64,000 nucleotides of DNA. It comes from a bacterium HR11. GTDB taxonomy: Bacteria; Acidobacteriota; HRBIN11. A program made the position numbers and the translations under genes. The stretch spans positions 186,001 through 250,000 of the forward strand of contig BEHN01000002.1 in assembly GCA_002898535.1 (NCBI GenBank). Direction: 5' to 3'. Each line of letters starts with the position of its first letter. Position 1 is the stretch's first letter. Below, one piece after another: positions 34,622 to 51,879 of the stretch. The notes beneath the pieces are model-generated. The model had not been told where the DNA came from. It ran no database searches and saw only the letters and a list, made by a program, of their open reading frames with translations.

Positions 34622-36031
34622 ATGCGACCGAAAACGCTGATCGTCTTGGGGAGCCTGGCGGTCATCGCCGTCGGTCTCGTCGTCTTCGACGCCTACTGGG
34701 CCAAGCGGAAGGAGCGTCAGGAAGAAGCCGCCAAGAAAGTCCTGGCGGCCCTGCCATGGGAGAAAATCACCCGCCTGGAGATCGAGACGGAAAAAGAGAA
34801 GGGCGGCCGGATCGTCCTTGAGCGGACTTCGGCCGGCTCTCCTTCGACCTGGCAGATCCGCCAGCCGGTTCAGGAGGAGGCCGACGGGAGTGCCGTCGAC
34901 CGCCTCTGGAATGGTCTAAAAGACTTAACCTACGACAAGAAGTTTGCGATGGCCTCTGGCACGAAGCTCTCGGACTTTGGTCTGGACCCGCCCCGGTCGC
35001 TTATCCGTCTCCAGGACGCCGAGGGCCATACGCTGGCCGCCCTGCGGGTCGGTCGGAAGACCCCCGTCGAGGGCGACCTCTACGCCATGCTCGAGGGGAG
35101 CCGGGACGTCCTCATCGTACCGAGCTGGCGGGAATCGACCCTCGTCCCGGCCTTGAAGGACCTCCGGAACCGCCGCCTGACGACCCTGAAGGCGACAGAC
35201 TTGGCCCGCATCGTCATCGAACGGAAGGGCCTCGAGCCCCCGACCCTCGCCTTTCGAAAAGAGCAAGGCCTGTGGCGCATCGAACAACCCCGCCCCATGC
35301 TGGCCAGCGCATCGACCCTGGCCGCCCTGACCAGCACCATCGAGTTCCTGGAGGCCGAGGACTTCGTCGCCGAACGGGCGACCGACCTGGCGCCGTACGG
35401 CCTCGATAACCCGGAGGTCCGCCTGACCGTCGAGACCGCCCAGGGGGCCCAGCAGGTCTTCCTCTTCGGCAAAAAACGGGACGATGCGACCTTCTTTGCC
35501 CAGGTCGCCCAACGGCCCCGCATCGTCGCCGTCCGGCGGTCTATCGTCGAGGACCTCCAACGGGGTCTCGACTACTGGCGGTCCCAGCAGGCCGCCGACT
35601 TTGAGTCCTACAACCTCCAGTCGGCCCGCATCCGGCAGGGAACGCAGACGTGGGAGTTCGTCAAAGAAACTCAGCCGGGCGAGACCTGGAAGGAACAGTG
35701 GTTCCTGAAGGCCGGTACCCAGAAAAAGGAGATTCCCCTGAACACCGTCGAGGACTTCTTCCGGAACCTGGACTACGCCGAGGCGGCGACCATCCGGGAC
35801 GACGTCCCCGCATCCGAGTTGGCTTCGATGGGCTTGAACGACCCGGCCCTGGTCGTTCGGGTCACCGACAAGGACAAACCGACCCAGACCATCGAAATCG
35901 GTCGGGCCGGCGACAAGACGTACACCCGCAATCCGGCCTTCCCCTCGACAGTTTTCGAGCTGAAGAAGGAATCGGCCGACAAACTCTGGCAGGCCTGGGA
36001 GGAACTCAAGAAGAAGCTGCAGGGGAAATAG
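34622..36031 (+). CDS. DUF4340 family protein of the GldG-type ABC set
   Basis: A 469-residue protein with one N-terminal membrane helix (TLIVLGSLAVIAVGLVVFDAYW) and a long periplasmic part. Segments such as ITRLEIETEKEKGG, TWQIRQPVQEEADGSAVDRL, LSDFGLDPPRSLIRL and LAPYGLDNPEVRL fit DUF4340, a domain usually encoded next to GldA-F-G-like transporters. The ATG at 34622 follows GGAGG. It is separated from gldG by a 270-base repeat spacer, unlike the tight coupling within the ABC genes, but the family pairing makes joint function likely. Confidence 0.85.
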   Translation: MRPKTLIVLGSLAVIAVGLVVFDAYWAKRKERQEEAAKKVLAALPWEKITRLEIETEKEKGGRIVLERTSAGSPSTWQIRQPVQEEADGSAVDRLWNGLKDLTYDKKFAMASGTKLSDFGLDPPRSLIRLQDAEGHTLAALRVGRKTPVEGDLYAMLEGSRDVLIVPSWRESTLVPALKDLRNRRLTTLKATDLARIVIERKGLEPPTLAFRKEQGLWRIEQPRPMLASASTLAALTSTIEFLEAEDFVAERATDLAPYGLDNPEVRLTVETAQGAQQVFLFGKKRDDATFFAQVAQRPRIVAVRRSIVEDLQRGLDYWRSQQAADFESYNLQSARIRQGTQTWEFVKETQPGETWKEQWFLKAGTQKKEIPLNTVEDFFRNLDYAEAATIRDDVPASELASMGLNDPALVVRVTDKDKPTQTIEIGRAGDKTYTRNPAFPSTVFELKKESADKLWQAWEELKKKLQGK

Positions 36032-36099
36032 GGAGATGGGCGGGTCGGCAGGTCGGCAGATGGGCAGATAAGGAGGTAGGGAGATAGGGAAATGGGGAT

Positions 36100-37695: not shown

Positions 37696-38063
37696 GCTTG
37701 CCTTGACGGAGCCGGAGGTGCAAGATACAAGATGCAGGATGCAGGATGCAAGCCGGACAGCCGGTCGCAGGTCCCGGACGTCGGGTCCCAGGAGAGGACC
37801 GGAGCCATTCGGCAGTTCGGGAGTCTGGGCATTCGGCCGATGGGCAGGTCGGCAGACAGGCCGTTTTCGTCCAAGCCCCGCTCGCCCGAGCGGGGTCGCG
37901 AGATGAGTCCTGGACTGCCGGGGCTCGGATCGCCCGACGCCACCCCGTGACCGTCCGCCAGACGGAGGGAGGTCCGGCGGGAGGGGCTATCTTTCACCGG
38001 CACCCGGGACCTGAGACCGCATATCCAGTTTGAATATTTTGAATATTCCAGTTTGAGGTAGGG
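37696..38063. other. divergent spacer nadB-moaA with repeats
   Basis: No gene. It has a CARGATR heptamer array (37721-37752), forward octamers (about 37806-37860), the CCCCGCTC palindrome (37876-37895) and, just before moaA, a small AT-rich inverted repeat GAATATT TTG AATATTC (about 38033-38050) set between two CCAGTTTGA direct repeats, a possible operator. I looked for a molybdenum-cofactor riboswitch and could not support one. Confidence 0.7.
37876..37895. repeat. CCCCGCTC palindrome, copy 2
   Basis: CCCCGCTCGCCCGAGCGGGG followed by TCGCGA. Confidence 0.85.
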
Positions 38064-41673: not shown

Positions 41674-41765
41674 AACTCATCTCCACATCGGGTCCCGGGG
41701 AGGGACCTCAGACCAGGATACAAGGATAAAGATGGGGGATAGAAATTGAGGAATGGAGATCCAAG

Positions 41766-41785
41766 CCCCGCCCGCCAGAGCGGCG
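41766..41785. repeat. CCCCGCTC palindrome, copy 3
   Basis: CCCCGCCCGCCAGAGCGGCG, two changes from copy 1, followed by TCGCGAGA. Confidence 0.8.
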
Positions 41786-41846
41786 TCGCGAGACAGCCCA
41801 CGGACTACAGACTACTGCTGTGTTAATCGGCCAGTACCTAACACCC

Positions 41847-41975: not shown

Positions 41976-42005
41976 TTGACAAAGGGTTCGGGGTTCTCCT
42001 ATAAT
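41976..42005 (+). promoter_or_regulatory. consensus promoter of xoxF
   Basis: TTGACA at 41976-41981, 18-base spacer, TATAAT at 42000-42005. Both hexamers are perfect, predicting strong expression and a leader of about 325 bases. Confidence 0.85.
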
Positions 42006-42338
42006 GAGGGATGACATAAGGGGGCTGGGGCGGTGCCCGCCGCCCTTGCAAAGAAGCCTGGAAGGGTGCAATGCGGCACCATACCCCTTGGTGTGTTTGC
42101 TTGTCCGACTTGCATCGGCCGCCGACCGACCAGGTCCTACCCGCCTATCTGTCCTCGAGTCCTTCCCTTCCATCCCTTCCCCGGAGAAGAGAACAAGGTA
42201 AGGCCCTCATCCCGACTTCTAATCCGCAATCTGCAATCTTGACGTTCCCTCTCGACGAAAAAAGAACGTCCGAGACGACTTGTCCTTTCTTCCCTCCTCC
42301 TGGGTATGTCCCTCCGCACTTATCCTTGGAGGGGAACT

Positions 42339-44168
42339 ATGCGGAGCAAATGGGTTTTACCCTGGCTGGCCTTCGGGCTGGTCCTGGTGCCCTTCGTGGC
42401 TTACCCCAACGAGGAGGTCCTCCGCCTGGGCAAGGACCCTGGCCAGTGGCCGATGCAACGGAAAAACTACTGGGCCACGGGCTACAGTGAATTAAACCAG
42501 ATCAACACCCAGAACGTGTCCCGGCTCAAGGTGGCGTGGACGTTCTCGACGGGGGCCCTGCGGGGCCACGAGGGGTCGCCCCTGGTGGTCGGCACGACGA
42601 TGTACGTCCACTCGGCTTACCCGAACCACGTGTACGCCCTGGACCTGACCAAGAAGCCTTACGCCCTCAAGTGGAAGTACACCCCCAAGCAGGACGAACG
42701 GGCCGTCCCCGTGGCGTGCTGTGACCTGGTCAATCGCGGCCTGGCGTACGCCAACGGCAAGATCTTCCTGAACACCCTGGACGGGCAGGTCATCGCCCTG
42801 GACGCCAACACGGGCAAGGAGGTTTGGAAGACCAAGCACGCCGACCCGGCCCGAGGGGAAACCATCACGATGCCCCCCATCGTCGTCCATGACAAGGTCC
42901 TCGTCGGCATCTCCGGCGGTGAGTTCGCCGTGCGGGGACGGGTCGCCGCTTACGACATCAACACGGGCAAGCGGGTATGGCTGGCGTACAACACGGGTCC
43001 CGACGAAGACCTCTTGCTGGACCCCGACTTTAACAAGGAGAACCCCCACTACGGCCGCTTCGGCGAGGGGACCCGGACGTGGGCCGGTGAAGAGTGGAAG
43101 ATCGGCGGCGCCACCCAATGGGGCTGGCTGTCCTATGACCCCGACCTGAACCTCTACTATTACGGGACCTCGAATCCCGGGACGTGGAACCCGACCCAGC
43201 GGTGCCCGGCGGGTCGGGACCCCAAGAAGGGCGAGTGCGACAACAAGTGGTCGACGTCCATTTGGGCCCGGAACCCCGACACGGGCCGGGGTCGGTGGGC
43301 CTACCAGATGACGCCCTGGGACGCCTGGGACTACGACGGCGTCAACGAGAACATCTTGGTCGACCTGACCATCGGCGGCAAGAAGGTGAAGGCCCTCGTC
43401 CACTTCGACCGGAACGGGTTTGCCTACACGCTGGACCGGGCCACCGGGACGCTCTATGTGGCCGAGCCGTTCGTGTACGTGAACTGGGCGAAGGGCGTCG
43501 ACAAGAAGACGGGCCGTCCCATCGAGGTCCCCGAGAAGCGGACGAAGCAGGGCGTGGACACCAAGAACATCTGCCCCTGCGCCATGGGCGGCAAGGACCA
43601 ACAACCCGCGGCCTACTCGCCCCAGACGGGCCTGTTCTATGTCCCGACCAACAACATGTGCATGAACTACGAGGGCGTCGAGGTCAAGTTCACGGCCGGG
43701 GCGCCTTACGTCGGGGCCAACGTCCTGATGTTCCCGGGCCATGAGGGCAAGGACGACTACTGGGGCGCCCTGATCGCCTGGGACGCCACGACCGGCAAGC
43801 GTGTCTGGGAGATCCGGGAGAAGTTCCCGGCCTGGAGCGGCGTCTTGGCGACGGGCGGCGGCCTCGTCTTCTACGGGACGATGGACGGTTGGTTCAAGGC
43901 CGTGGACGCCAAGTCCGGCAAGGTCCTGTGGCAGCACAAGGTCGGCTCGGGCATCATCGCGGCACCGATGACCTTCCTGGGTCCGGACGGCAAGCAGTAC
44001 ATCGCGACCTACTCGGGCGTCGGTGGGTGGTTCGGCCTGCCGGTGGCGGCGGGTCTGCCGCCGGACGACCCCTTCGGCGCCCTGGGTGCCGTCGGGGCGG
44101 CCTACCAGTCGGGCTTGGATAAGGCCACGACACTGGGCGGCATGCTCTACGTGTTCGCCCTCGAGTAA
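42339..44168 (+). CDS. xoxF: lanthanide-dependent PQQ methanol dehydrogenase, XoxF type
   Basis: Periplasmic quinoprotein that oxidises methanol to formaldehyde or formate and passes electrons to cytochrome c. The 609-residue precursor has a signal peptide and the eight-bladed propeller repeats. Visible site residues: vicinal disulfide C127-C128 (VACCDLVN) over PQQ, metal ligands E195 and N279, catalytic base D331, and D333 two residues later in AWDYDGVNE. This second Asp marks the rare-earth (Ln) form; the calcium form MxaF has Ala there. The ATG at 42339 follows GGAGGGG; the in-frame ATG at 42306 is less likely. A strong terminator follows. XoxJ and a cytochrome fusion are next, completing the oxidation system; PQQ synthesis genes are not in the window. 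Confidence 0.95.
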   Translation: MRSKWVLPWLAFGLVLVPFVAYPNEEVLRLGKDPGQWPMQRKNYWATGYSELNQINTQNVSRLKVAWTFSTGALRGHEGSPLVVGTTMYVHSAYPNHVYALDLTKKPYALKWKYTPKQDERAVPVACCDLVNRGLAYANGKIFLNTLDGQVIALDANTGKEVWKTKHADPARGETITMPPIVVHDKVLVGISGGEFAVRGRVAAYDINTGKRVWLAYNTGPDEDLLLDPDFNKENPHYGRFGEGTRTWAGEEWKIGGATQWGWLSYDPDLNLYYYGTSNPGTWNPTQRCPAGRDPKKGECDNKWSTSIWARNPDTGRGRWAYQMTPWDAWDYDGVNENILVDLTIGGKKVKALVHFDRNGFAYTLDRATGTLYVAEPFVYVNWAKGVDKKTGRPIEVPEKRTKQGVDTKNICPCAMGGKDQQPAAYSPQTGLFYVPTNNMCMNYEGVEVKFTAGAPYVGANVLMFPGHEGKDDYWGALIAWDATTGKRVWEIREKFPAWSGVLATGGGLVFYGTMDGWFKAVDAKSGKVLWQHKVGSGIIAAPMTFLGPDGKQYIATYSGVGGWFGLPVAAGLPPDDPFGALGAVGAAYQSGLDKATTLGGMLYVFALE

Positions 44169-44193
44169 GATACGGTAACCCTCTGAAATCGTC

Positions 44194-44232
44194 GCTCCCC
44201 GTCCCGTCTCTCGACGGGGCGGGGAGCTTTAT
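44194..44232 (+). terminator. rho-independent terminator after xoxF
   Basis: GCTCCCCG TCCCGTC loop TCTC GACGGGG CGGGGAGC: a 15-pair stem (one G-U) at 44194-44227, followed by TTTAT. Confidence 0.85.
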
Positions 44233-44286
44233 CCATCCCCCACCCTGACCGTGGACCCCGCCGGAGAAAGCGAGGCAAGATCCCAG

Positions 44287-44306
44287 CCCCGCTCACCAGA
44301 GTGGGG
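44287..44306. repeat. CCCCGCTC palindrome, copy 4
   Basis: CCCCGCTCACCAGAGTGGGG; the two changes keep pairing (C-A to G-T partners), evidence that the hairpin itself is kept. Confidence 0.85.
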
Positions 44307-44418
44307 GTCCATATCAGGATGCAAGGGGATCGGGAATGGTGAATGGAGAGAACACGCTGGCGGATGGCTGGTATTGATATCATATACTATACAGGTTGAA
44401 CGTTTTGGGGATGTTAAG

Positions 44419-45297
44419 ATGATTCATTTACGAAAGATCATTCAGGAAATCATTGGATGCGTCGGTGTCGGCCTCCTTTTGACCCTGGGTAGCCTGGGGG
44501 CCCAGGAGGCGACGCCGCCGACAGAGAACGTCCTGCGGGTCTGTGCCGACCCGGCCGACTTGCCCTTTTCAGACCAGAATCGGCAGGGCTTCGAGAACAA
44601 AATCGCCGAGGTCGTCGCCCAAGCGATGGGTGCCCGGCTTGAGTACTACTGGTGGCCTTATCAACGGGGTCTGGTCCGGCGTACGTTGGAAGAAGGCAAG
44701 TGCGACGTTCTCATCAACGTCCCGACGGAATGGGAACTCGTCCTGACGACCCGGCCGTATTACCGGACGACGTATGTCCTGGTATCCAAGGCCGACAGCG
44801 AGTTGCAGGTCTCTTCCGGCCTCCAGGACCCCGTCCTCCAGAAGGTCCGGGTCGGCGTGCATCTCAATACGCCGCCTCACGTCTTGCTGGCCGAGCATGG
44901 GATTGTCGAAAACGTCACGGCCTATCCCCTTTCCTACGACCCTCAATTTCATCCAGAGGACTATCCGGGTAAGCTCATCGAGGACCTGCTGGCCGGGAAG
45001 GTCGATGTGGCCGTCGTGTGGGGGCCTATCGCCGGGTACTTTGCCAAGAAGAAGGGAGCGCCCCTGCGGATCGTCCCGGTCCCGGACGAGAATCCCCGGA
45101 TCCCGATGGCCTTTAACATGTCGATGGGCGTGCGTAAGGGAAATAAGGCGTTAAAGGCTCGACTGGAGGAAATTCTGACGGCCAAAGCGGCGGAAATCCG
45201 GGCCATCCTGGAGGACTATGGCGTCCCCCTCTTGGAAATTCAGCCGGTCCGGGAAAAGCCCGCCCCGCCGAAGGAAGGCCACAAGCATCCGGGATGA
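44419..45297 (+). CDS. xoxJ: XoxJ-like periplasmic binding protein of the methanol dehydrogenase
   Basis: The 292-residue product has a signal peptide (to about GAQEA) and the fold of a family-3 solute-binding protein: LRVCADPADLPFSDQNRQGF, then WWPYQRGLVRRTL, VPTEWELVLTTRPYYRTTYVL, a second-lobe block DPVLQKVRVGVHLNTPP, and KVDVAVVWGPIAGYF. This is the MxaJ/XoxJ type found next to PQQ alcohol dehydrogenases, thought to help activate or stabilise the dehydrogenase rather than transport a solute. The ATG at 44419 is the first good start after the xoxF terminator. Residues 115-210 are closely similar to the C-terminal part of the downstream cytochrome fusion. Confidence 0.92.
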   Translation: MIHLRKIIQEIIGCVGVGLLLTLGSLGAQEATPPTENVLRVCADPADLPFSDQNRQGFENKIAEVVAQAMGARLEYYWWPYQRGLVRRTLEEGKCDVLINVPTEWELVLTTRPYYRTTYVLVSKADSELQVSSGLQDPVLQKVRVGVHLNTPPHVLLAEHGIVENVTAYPLSYDPQFHPEDYPGKLIEDLLAGKVDVAVVWGPIAGYFAKKKGAPLRIVPVPDENPRIPMAFNMSMGVRKGNKALKARLEEILTAKAAEIRAILEDYGVPLLEIQPVREKPAPPKEGHKHPG

Positions 45298-45464
45298 TGG
45301 GAAGTGGCGGAGTGACGACGTGACGACGTGACGCATGGCTCACCGCCGGTAGGGTCGTTTCCACCCACTTTTCAGGCCACTCTTAAGCTATGAGCCATGA
45401 CCCTGCGCCGTAGAGGGCCTGCGTCGCTCCGTCCCATCGTCACTCTCCCAAATGGAGGCCTCCG
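45298..45464. other. spacer xoxJ to cytochrome fusion
   Basis: Contains GTGACGACGTGACGACGTGACGC (tandem GACGACGT units), then inverse CTCATRG-like sequence around a TAAGCTATGAGCCATGA stretch. No gene. Confidence 0.6.
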
Positions 45465-46427
45465 ATGTGGCAGGGACACCGGATCTACGGGTGGGTCGGA
45501 CTCCTGATCGCCGGCGTCGTGGTCGGCCACGGCCTGCTGGGAGCCCAGAACCCGCCGCAGAATCCCTATGCCGGCAATGCCGAAGCCGCCAAGGAAGGGT
45601 ATCAGATCTTCCAAAAGATGGGTTGTCCGGGGTGCCACGGTGCCGGCGGCGGAGGCGGTATGGGCTGGTCCCTGATCGACTGCGTCTGGCGTTTCGGATG
45701 GGACGACGCCACGCTGTTCCGCCTGATCAAGGGCCAAATCCCCGAGCAGACGATGCCCCGCGGGTTTGGCGACGTCCTGACCGACGACCAAGTCTGGAAA
45801 ATCATCGCCTGGGTGCGGACGATCAACCATTGTGAAGAAAACGTCATCGGCACACCGACAGCGGCGACGACGGCCCCGAATCCAGAAGCCGAGGCCCAGG
45901 AACAAGAAAAGGCTTGCCGGTTGGTCGCCATCAATCAAAATATGATTCGCCAGACCCTGCAGGCTTTTCCCGACTACGCCTCGACTTACGTGATCCTGTA
46001 TCGGGACGACGTGACGAAGCCTGTCCAGTCCCTGGAAGACCCGGCGCTTTCGAAACTTCGGGTCGGCGTGAACGCCGATACGCCCGTCGTGGACCTCTTG
46101 AAGAAGGCCGGGGCCTCCAACGTCGTGACCTACTCGCTGTCGGAAGGCCCCATGGGGCAAATCGTGACGGACGTCTTGGACCGGAAGATCGACGTGGCCG
46201 TGGTATGGGCGCCCCTGGCCGGCTTCTTCATCTGGCAGTCGGACACGGAGCATCGTCTGACGGCCGTGCCCCTGGCGGCGGTTCTGACGGCCCCGACACC
46301 GTTGCATTCTGCCGAAGCTTCGTCCACGCCGTATGTCCAGCGCTGCCAGCAGTTCTTGCACGGCATCCTGGAGTCTTACGGCGTCGTGCCGGCTCAGGTC
46401 CTGACGGCGGGCTCCAATTCACGCTGA
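45465..46427 (+). CDS. cytochrome c fused to a partial XoxJ-like domain (cGJ type)
   Basis: A 320-residue exported protein. An N-terminal membrane/signal segment (about 8-27) is followed by a class I cytochrome c domain: heme-binding C54-P-G-C57-H58 and likely axial M97 in TMPRGFG. After a Thr/Ala/Pro-rich linker (about 128-145), residues 173-260 repeat the second half of XoxJ: TYVILYRDD, LEDPALSKLRVGVNADTPV, KIDVAVVWAPLAGFF. The first XoxJ lobe (LRVCADP... block) is missing. Fused XoxG-XoxJ proteins (cytochrome cGJ) are known as XoxF electron acceptors in verrucomicrobial methanotrophs; here a separate full XoxJ is also present and the J part is cut down. The ATG at 45465 follows GGAGG. Confidence 0.9.
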   Translation: MWQGHRIYGWVGLLIAGVVVGHGLLGAQNPPQNPYAGNAEAAKEGYQIFQKMGCPGCHGAGGGGGMGWSLIDCVWRFGWDDATLFRLIKGQIPEQTMPRGFGDVLTDDQVWKIIAWVRTINHCEENVIGTPTAATTAPNPEAEAQEQEKACRLVAINQNMIRQTLQAFPDYASTYVILYRDDVTKPVQSLEDPALSKLRVGVNADTPVVDLLKKAGASNVVTYSLSEGPMGQIVTDVLDRKIDVAVVWAPLAGFFIWQSDTEHRLTAVPLAAVLTAPTPLHSAEASSTPYVQRCQQFLHGILESYGVVPAQVLTAGSNSR

Positions 46428-51445: not shown

Positions 51446-51879
51446 AGGCCTCGCTTCGTGACCACCGGATGTCGGGACGACGAGATGGGGTCTGAAAAAG
51501 AAGCCGTCGTCTGGACCGAGGGATATGGGTCGGCGTCGTCCCTTTGGAATGGCGGGTCGCGACCGGCGAATGGTCTGGAGTCCGTGGCTCTCATTCAACC
51601 CCGTCCCGCCATCCCGTTGGAATGATGACCCCGCTCTGGCGAGCGGGGCTTGGACGAGAACGGCCTATTGCTTTGTCAATTAAACTGTTTCGGCCATTCG
51701 GGAACCCGGCCGTTCGGGAGTCCGGCGACTTCACGACGAATTTCCCTGGTTCCCGGACGTCCGGATTCCCAAAGAATCTAAGATGACAAAGGAGCACTAT
51801 CGGCCGACCTGCCCATTTGCCGAATTCCCGAATGGCCGAACTCCCGATATCCTGCATCTGTCCAAAGCGGCTGGGATTC
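51446..51879. other. spacer with inverted palindrome and reverse octamers
   Basis: No gene. Holds a CCCCGCTC palindrome in inverse orientation (51629-51648), a run of TTCGGCCATTCGGGAACCCGGC-like units (about 51685-51730), a complementary CCCGGACGTCCGGATTCCC stretch (about 51755-51773), and a reverse octamer array (about 51803-51850) just before the transporter gene. Confidence 0.7.
51629..51648 (-). repeat. CCCCGCTC palindrome, copy 5 (inverse)
   Basis: CCCCGCTCTGGCGAGCGGGG; the CCATCCCGTTGGAATG before it is the inverse of the tail after copy 6. Confidence 0.85.

Follow-up and report, generated by a model that had tools for sequence, protein, structure and literature searches.

Why would a cytochrome carry a J-like domain when a complete XoxJ is encoded by the gene next to it? 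This question is raised by a three-gene cluster for methanol oxidation in the genome of bacterium HR11 (Acidobacteriota; assembly GCA_002898535.1), located in a stretch of 64,000 nucleotides of contig BEHN01000002.1 (positions 186,001 to 250,000) that is referred to here as the window. A corresponding operon of Methylacidiphilum Kam1 has been named xoxFJG:J, with a J part in the fusion that is shorter than free XoxJ and a suggestion that this truncated J serves to bind XoxG:J to the methanol dehydrogenase (MDH) (PMC6688271). A review names the cGJ fusion as the electron acceptor of XoxF and places a separate xoxJ gene beside it (PMC8498564). Both the gene arrangement and the docking idea are already in print for another phylum, and the combination of genes that a first-pass annotation of the window pointed out is thus the one published for Methylacidiphilum. 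What may be new is not the three-gene arrangement but the truncated J, here called half-J, as a module of its own, together with the other genomic contexts in which it occurs.

The xoxF gene and its upstream region

The start codon of xoxF has a GGAGGGG ribosome site in front of it and is kept in the relatives L031 and L032. The encoded protein matches TIGR03075 (686 bits), and its best match in the PDB is the XoxF2 of M. fumariolicum SolV (4mae, 1039 bits), followed by a XoxF1 (7o6z, 718 bits). All four SolV ligands (E172, N256, D299 and D301) are identical in the window XoxF when it is aligned to 4mae, where they correspond to E206, N290, D342 and D344 in the numbering of the 620-residue open reading frame. 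Numbered from the 42339 start, the two aspartates become D331 and D333, which bears out the lanthanide-type D331-x-D333 motif claimed at first pass. By this alignment D331 is assigned as the catalytic and D333 as the lanthanide-binding aspartate, and we infer from the sequence that the enzyme uses a lanthanide. A short insertion that is missing from SolV XoxF2 contains two cysteines (RCPAGRDPKKGECDNKW, window 43200-43255), and an extra disulfide is possible at this position.

The promoter hexamers and their spacing are identical upstream of xoxF in L031 and L032, and the untranslated leader is 92% (L031) and 77% (L032) identical to that of the window. An Rfam search of the leader matched no known RNA family; on the few sequences at hand, it is a candidate cis-regulatory RNA.

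Table 1. Features of the methanol oxidation cluster, in window positions
Feature	Position	Strand	Description
Sigma-70-type promoter	41976..42005	+	TTGACA-N18-TATAAT, 12/12 consensus positions
xoxF untranslated leader	42019..42150	+	Conserved, GC-rich, about 130 nt
xoxF	42339..44168	+	XoxF2-type lanthanide methanol dehydrogenase (putative lanthanide use); 609 aa from the 42339 start, reading frame open from 42306
D-Y-D motif of XoxF	43329..43337	+	D331 and D333, aligned to D299/D301 of 4mae
xoxJ	44419..45297	+	Full-length periplasmic XoxJ, 292 aa; cysteine pair C42/C95
Cytochrome cGJ-type fusion gene	45465..46427	+	320 aa: signal-like N-terminus, XoxG-type cytochrome c, linker, half-J
XoxG-type cytochrome c domain of fusion	45585..45827	+	Residues 41-121; CPGCH heme site at 54-58
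Half-J domain of fusion	45915..46412	+	Residues 151-316; cysteines C151 and C294

XoxJ and the cytochrome fusion

The full-length XoxJ that had been claimed to follow xoxF is indeed present, as the protein covers the whole TIGR03871 model (311 bits against a cut-off of 212) and has XoxJ of M. extorquens as a solved relative (6onp, E 1e-54). The cytochrome domain of the fusion contains one CxxCH motif, corresponding to one heme, and matches PF13442 (7e-10) and TIGR03872 (4e-13). Half-J matches positions 55-181 only of the 232 positions of TIGR03871 (E 5e-22) and is 40% identical to the neighboring XoxJ over 115 residues (BLASTP, E 9e-20); because the resemblance is found by profile and by BLASTP, it is not due to chance. 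The first-pass description of a cytochrome fused to a J-like domain without the first lobe is correct with regard to the fusion but not with regard to the loss of an entire lobe. The fused J is missing no more than the first portion of lobe I, as far as the residue equivalent to XoxJ C95, and retains the strand that starts at C95, the hinge, lobe II and the C-terminal helix.

The reading frames of xoxF, xoxJ and the fusion gene are all open and intact, and the three genes apparently constitute a single operon behind the sigma-70-like promoter. The fusion is 85-88% identical in two sister species, in which mocA and corA likewise lie downstream, and the public relatives are the metagenome-assembled genomes JZ-1.bins.94 and SKYB104, labelled Acidobacteria/Acidobacteriota. 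Intergenic repeats are dispersed among the genes of the window in both orientations (36031-36073, 37807-37897, 41760-41793 and 51627-51847) and consist of GGCAGGTCGGCAGATGGGC-like repeats and a 40-nt palindrome-like CCGCTCGCCCGAGCGGGG element.

Kinship with the verrucomicrobial operon and proposed mechanism

Methylacidiphilum sp. Yel (L033) has xoxF, a xoxJ for 290 residues and a 292-residue cytochrome-J fusion in an order identical to that of the window, and the window fusion corresponds to cytochrome cGJ of verrucomicrobial methanotrophs. As in the xoxFJG:J operons of strains SolV, V4 and Kam1, the order is xoxF-xoxJ-xoxG:J with a separate full-length xoxJ and an XoxF2-type enzyme, and as in the Methylacidiphilum fusion the cytochrome is N-terminal, the truncated J is C-terminal and both half-J cysteines are present. 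Unlike the Methylacidiphilum systems, the window operon is found in an Acidobacteriota host whose genome contains further half-J fusions, and the two fusion proteins are only about 38% identical. Half-J is present in 5 of the 289 Verrucomicrobiota genomes sampled, and all five have a xoxJ of its own standing free about 1 kb upstream.

Phylogenetic trees extend this kinship to the individual proteins. In a tree of 38 sequences the XoxF proteins of the window and of L031 form a clade with those of Methylacidiphilum and LP2A (100/100). XoxF clades 1, 3, 4 and 5 are not all present in this tree as named references, and one row (L065) is frameshifted and its position is meaningless. XoxJ forms a clade with XoxJ of Methylacidiphilum and G560 (97/90), while the grouping of half-J with the Methylacidiphilum fusion (84/79) and that of the cytochrome with Methylacidiphilum, which includes a paralogue on contig C16 of the window genome (89/76), receive weaker support. 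Since XoxF and XoxJ strongly, and half-J and the cytochrome weakly, group with verrucomicrobial proteins, the best-fitting account is that the operon as a whole passed from one phylum to the other, in either direction. Verrucomicrobia LP2A has an XoxF2-like gene (L040 5908-7797) with W-G-Y-D instead of W-D-Y-D, which replaces the catalytic aspartate by glycine; it forms a long branch, no adjoining J or XoxG was detected, and it is probably a non-canonical or decaying paralogue.

A search for PmoA/AMO gave no match in the window genome and two relatives and a clear match in the positive controls G396 and G560, which makes methanol, rather than methane, the likely entry point. The genome does contain pqqC and pqqE genes. 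A Methylacidiphilum-type lanthanide methanol operon is now seen in a second phylum, probably as a result of transfer, and in a genome in which no methane monooxygenase gene was found.

We consider it likely that the window locus is a Methylacidiphilum-type xoxFJG:J methanol oxidation operon in which XoxF2 donates electrons to the fusion, half-J provides docking and free XoxJ provides activation. In such a pathway XoxF2, containing PQQ and a lanthanide, would act in the periplasm and oxidize methanol or some other primary alcohol, and free XoxJ would participate in the loading or activation of XoxF. The fusion cytochrome would accept electrons singly, a role reported for the Methylacidiphilum protein, and would hand them on towards an oxidase. 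Half-J, as a lone lobe II with its own disulfide, would hold the heme near the dehydrogenase in the manner of a tether or docking arm. The division of labor raised at first pass, with the free J activating and the fused J docking, is plausible.

Half-J is a module of its own

When 71 full J proteins are aligned with 17 half-J domains, which are all related sequences and not independent counts, a cysteine signature separates the two. All full J proteins (71/71) have two cysteines, corresponding to C42 and C95 of the XoxJ encoded in the window. Half-J is without the stretch that bears the first of these, keeps the second (C151 in the window fusion) and has an additional cysteine (C294) within its C-terminal helix; a cysteine occupies that column in 17/17 half-J domains and 0/71 full J proteins. 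This exchange suggests a relocated disulfide, which in the window fusion would connect C151 and C294. Additionally, all 13 half-J domains included in a tree fall on one side of a 100/100 branch, although several half-J branches are long and the order inside the group is unsure. The J-domain phylogeny thus places half-J apart from the window XoxJ, and sequence comparison indicates that half-J is an old single module and not a recent copy of the adjacent xoxJ.

Predicted structures agree with a relation to the XoxJ fold. For the window fusion, AlphaFold gave a low-confidence model (pLDDT 55, built on 8 sequences), whose sole PDB match with E <0.001 is XoxJ 6onp. The model of a fusion of reverse order, encoded on contig C18 of the same genome, is better, with half-J blocks mostly at 80-95 and with 6onp and MxaJ 5sv6 as its first matches. 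The relatedness of the fused J to XoxJ that was assumed at first pass is consequently found in sequence (TIGR03871, BLASTP) as well as in predicted fold, with 6onp as best solved match of both models. Domain 2 of T. maritima ArgBP, solved in excised form (6gpm), and the half-J model from contig C18 can be superposed with a deviation of 1.9 A across 93 columns (TM 0.79 of target), so it is reasonable to regard a lone lobe II as a folding unit.

These results bear on two simpler explanations of the fused domain. One is that half-J was copied from the adjacent xoxJ in its own lineage and subsequently lost its first lobe, as the duplication proposed in the first-pass annotation would have it, and the 40% identity and adjacency of the two within one operon fit such an event. 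However, pairing of half-J with the xoxJ of its own operon is rejected for the window (AU p = 0.00012) and for Methylacidiphilum (3e-61), the cysteine exchange is without exception, and all half-J domains share one branch, even if the long half-J branches weaken that part of the tree; local duplication is almost certainly not the source. It is also very unlikely that half-J is a functionless, decaying remnant retained through its attachment to a cytochrome. While half-J does lack part of the binding-protein fold and some Verrucomicrobiota have a very divergent version, every species seen, from two phyla, has an intact domain, its C, Y, W-x-P and C positions are invariant, and it has been re-used in at least four genomic contexts. 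Now that the truncated J is set apart as a module recognizable by its signature, what XoxJ/MxaJ does, so far unsolved, becomes testable lobe by lobe.

Half-J in other genomic contexts

The window genome has two other half-J fusions, both with the J domain first. On contig C18 (L022 5844-9613) downstream of a half-J-cytochrome gene lie genes for a full J and for a PQQ alcohol dehydrogenase of divergent sequence, which has a D-W-D motif and is up to 50% identical to XoxF; this operon is a second, possibly lanthanide-dependent system. On contig C1 (L024 5085-7454, minus strand) a half-J-cytochrome fusion adjoins a glucose/sorbosone-dehydrogenase-like gene with matches to the GSDH/PVC type only, a pairing that is kept in G002 (L030). 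All three half-J fusions of this genome (3/3) adjoin a dehydrogenase gene, two of which encode PQQ alcohol dehydrogenases and one a GSDH-like protein. Contig C16 (L023 6848-7816) encodes a cytochrome of the XoxG type that shares 59% identity with its counterpart in the window fusion, is joined to a cupredoxin and a CarboxypepD_reg-like domain and has no J.

A different setting is found in four other Acidobacteriota (G245, L143; G065, L144; G1192, L183; G1187, L184), where a J-first fusion lies between a preceding MtrB/PioB-like porin and a following cupredoxin-like gene, with a DmsE-type decaheme cytochrome in front of the porin in G065 and G1192. In the stretches compared, we detected no quinoprotein dehydrogenase adjacent to these fusions. 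The module must therefore do more than dock to XoxF, and it may have different partners in different contexts. A survey of MtrCAB clusters mentions neither MxaJ nor cupredoxins (PMC8805035), and we found no description of half-J in porin-cytochrome loci or in its other contexts in the open-access literature.

We tentatively propose that half-J could be an old, portable docking module for electron carriers, composed of one XoxJ lobe with a relocated disulfide and attached to unrelated cytochromes in both orders, that serves quinoprotein dehydrogenases as well as MtrB/PioB electron conduits of the outer membrane. If true, this module links an accessory fold of methanol oxidation to extracellular electron transfer. 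Half-J could also be a general cap for periplasmic cytochromes, with a role in partner recognition or redox tuning, that in the xox operon steers the cytochrome towards the next carrier or oxidase and not towards XoxF. Two observations would fit a general cap: half-J is joined, J first, to another kind of cytochrome next to the divergent PQQ alcohol dehydrogenase and next to the GSDH-like gene, and in the stretches compared no dehydrogenase adjoins it at the four porin-cupredoxin loci. We nevertheless regard this as rather unlikely, since every half-J fusion of the window genome adjoins a dehydrogenase gene and the family TIGR03871 defines full J proteins as partners of quinoproteins.

Other arrangements of J and cytochrome

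NC10, Rokubacteria and M. extorquens (XoxJ 6onp) share with the window the XoxJ fold and family and an XoxG-type cytochrome but, unlike the window fusion, have XoxJ and XoxG as separate proteins with a full-length J. At a threshold of E 1e-24, which weak members could escape, half-J was found in 0/95 NC10 and 0/247 Binatota genomes, while its matches elsewhere have E 1e-30 or better. Vicinamibacteria, Binatia and one Myxococcota do have a J and an XoxG-like cytochrome in one frame beside xoxF, as in the window (L041-L043, L045, L047, L049, L055-L059 and L061). No second J was found in these loci, and in contrast to the window fusion their J is complete and located on the N-terminal side of the cytochrome, which is the opposite order. 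The full-length J-cytochrome protein is a separate kind of fusion.
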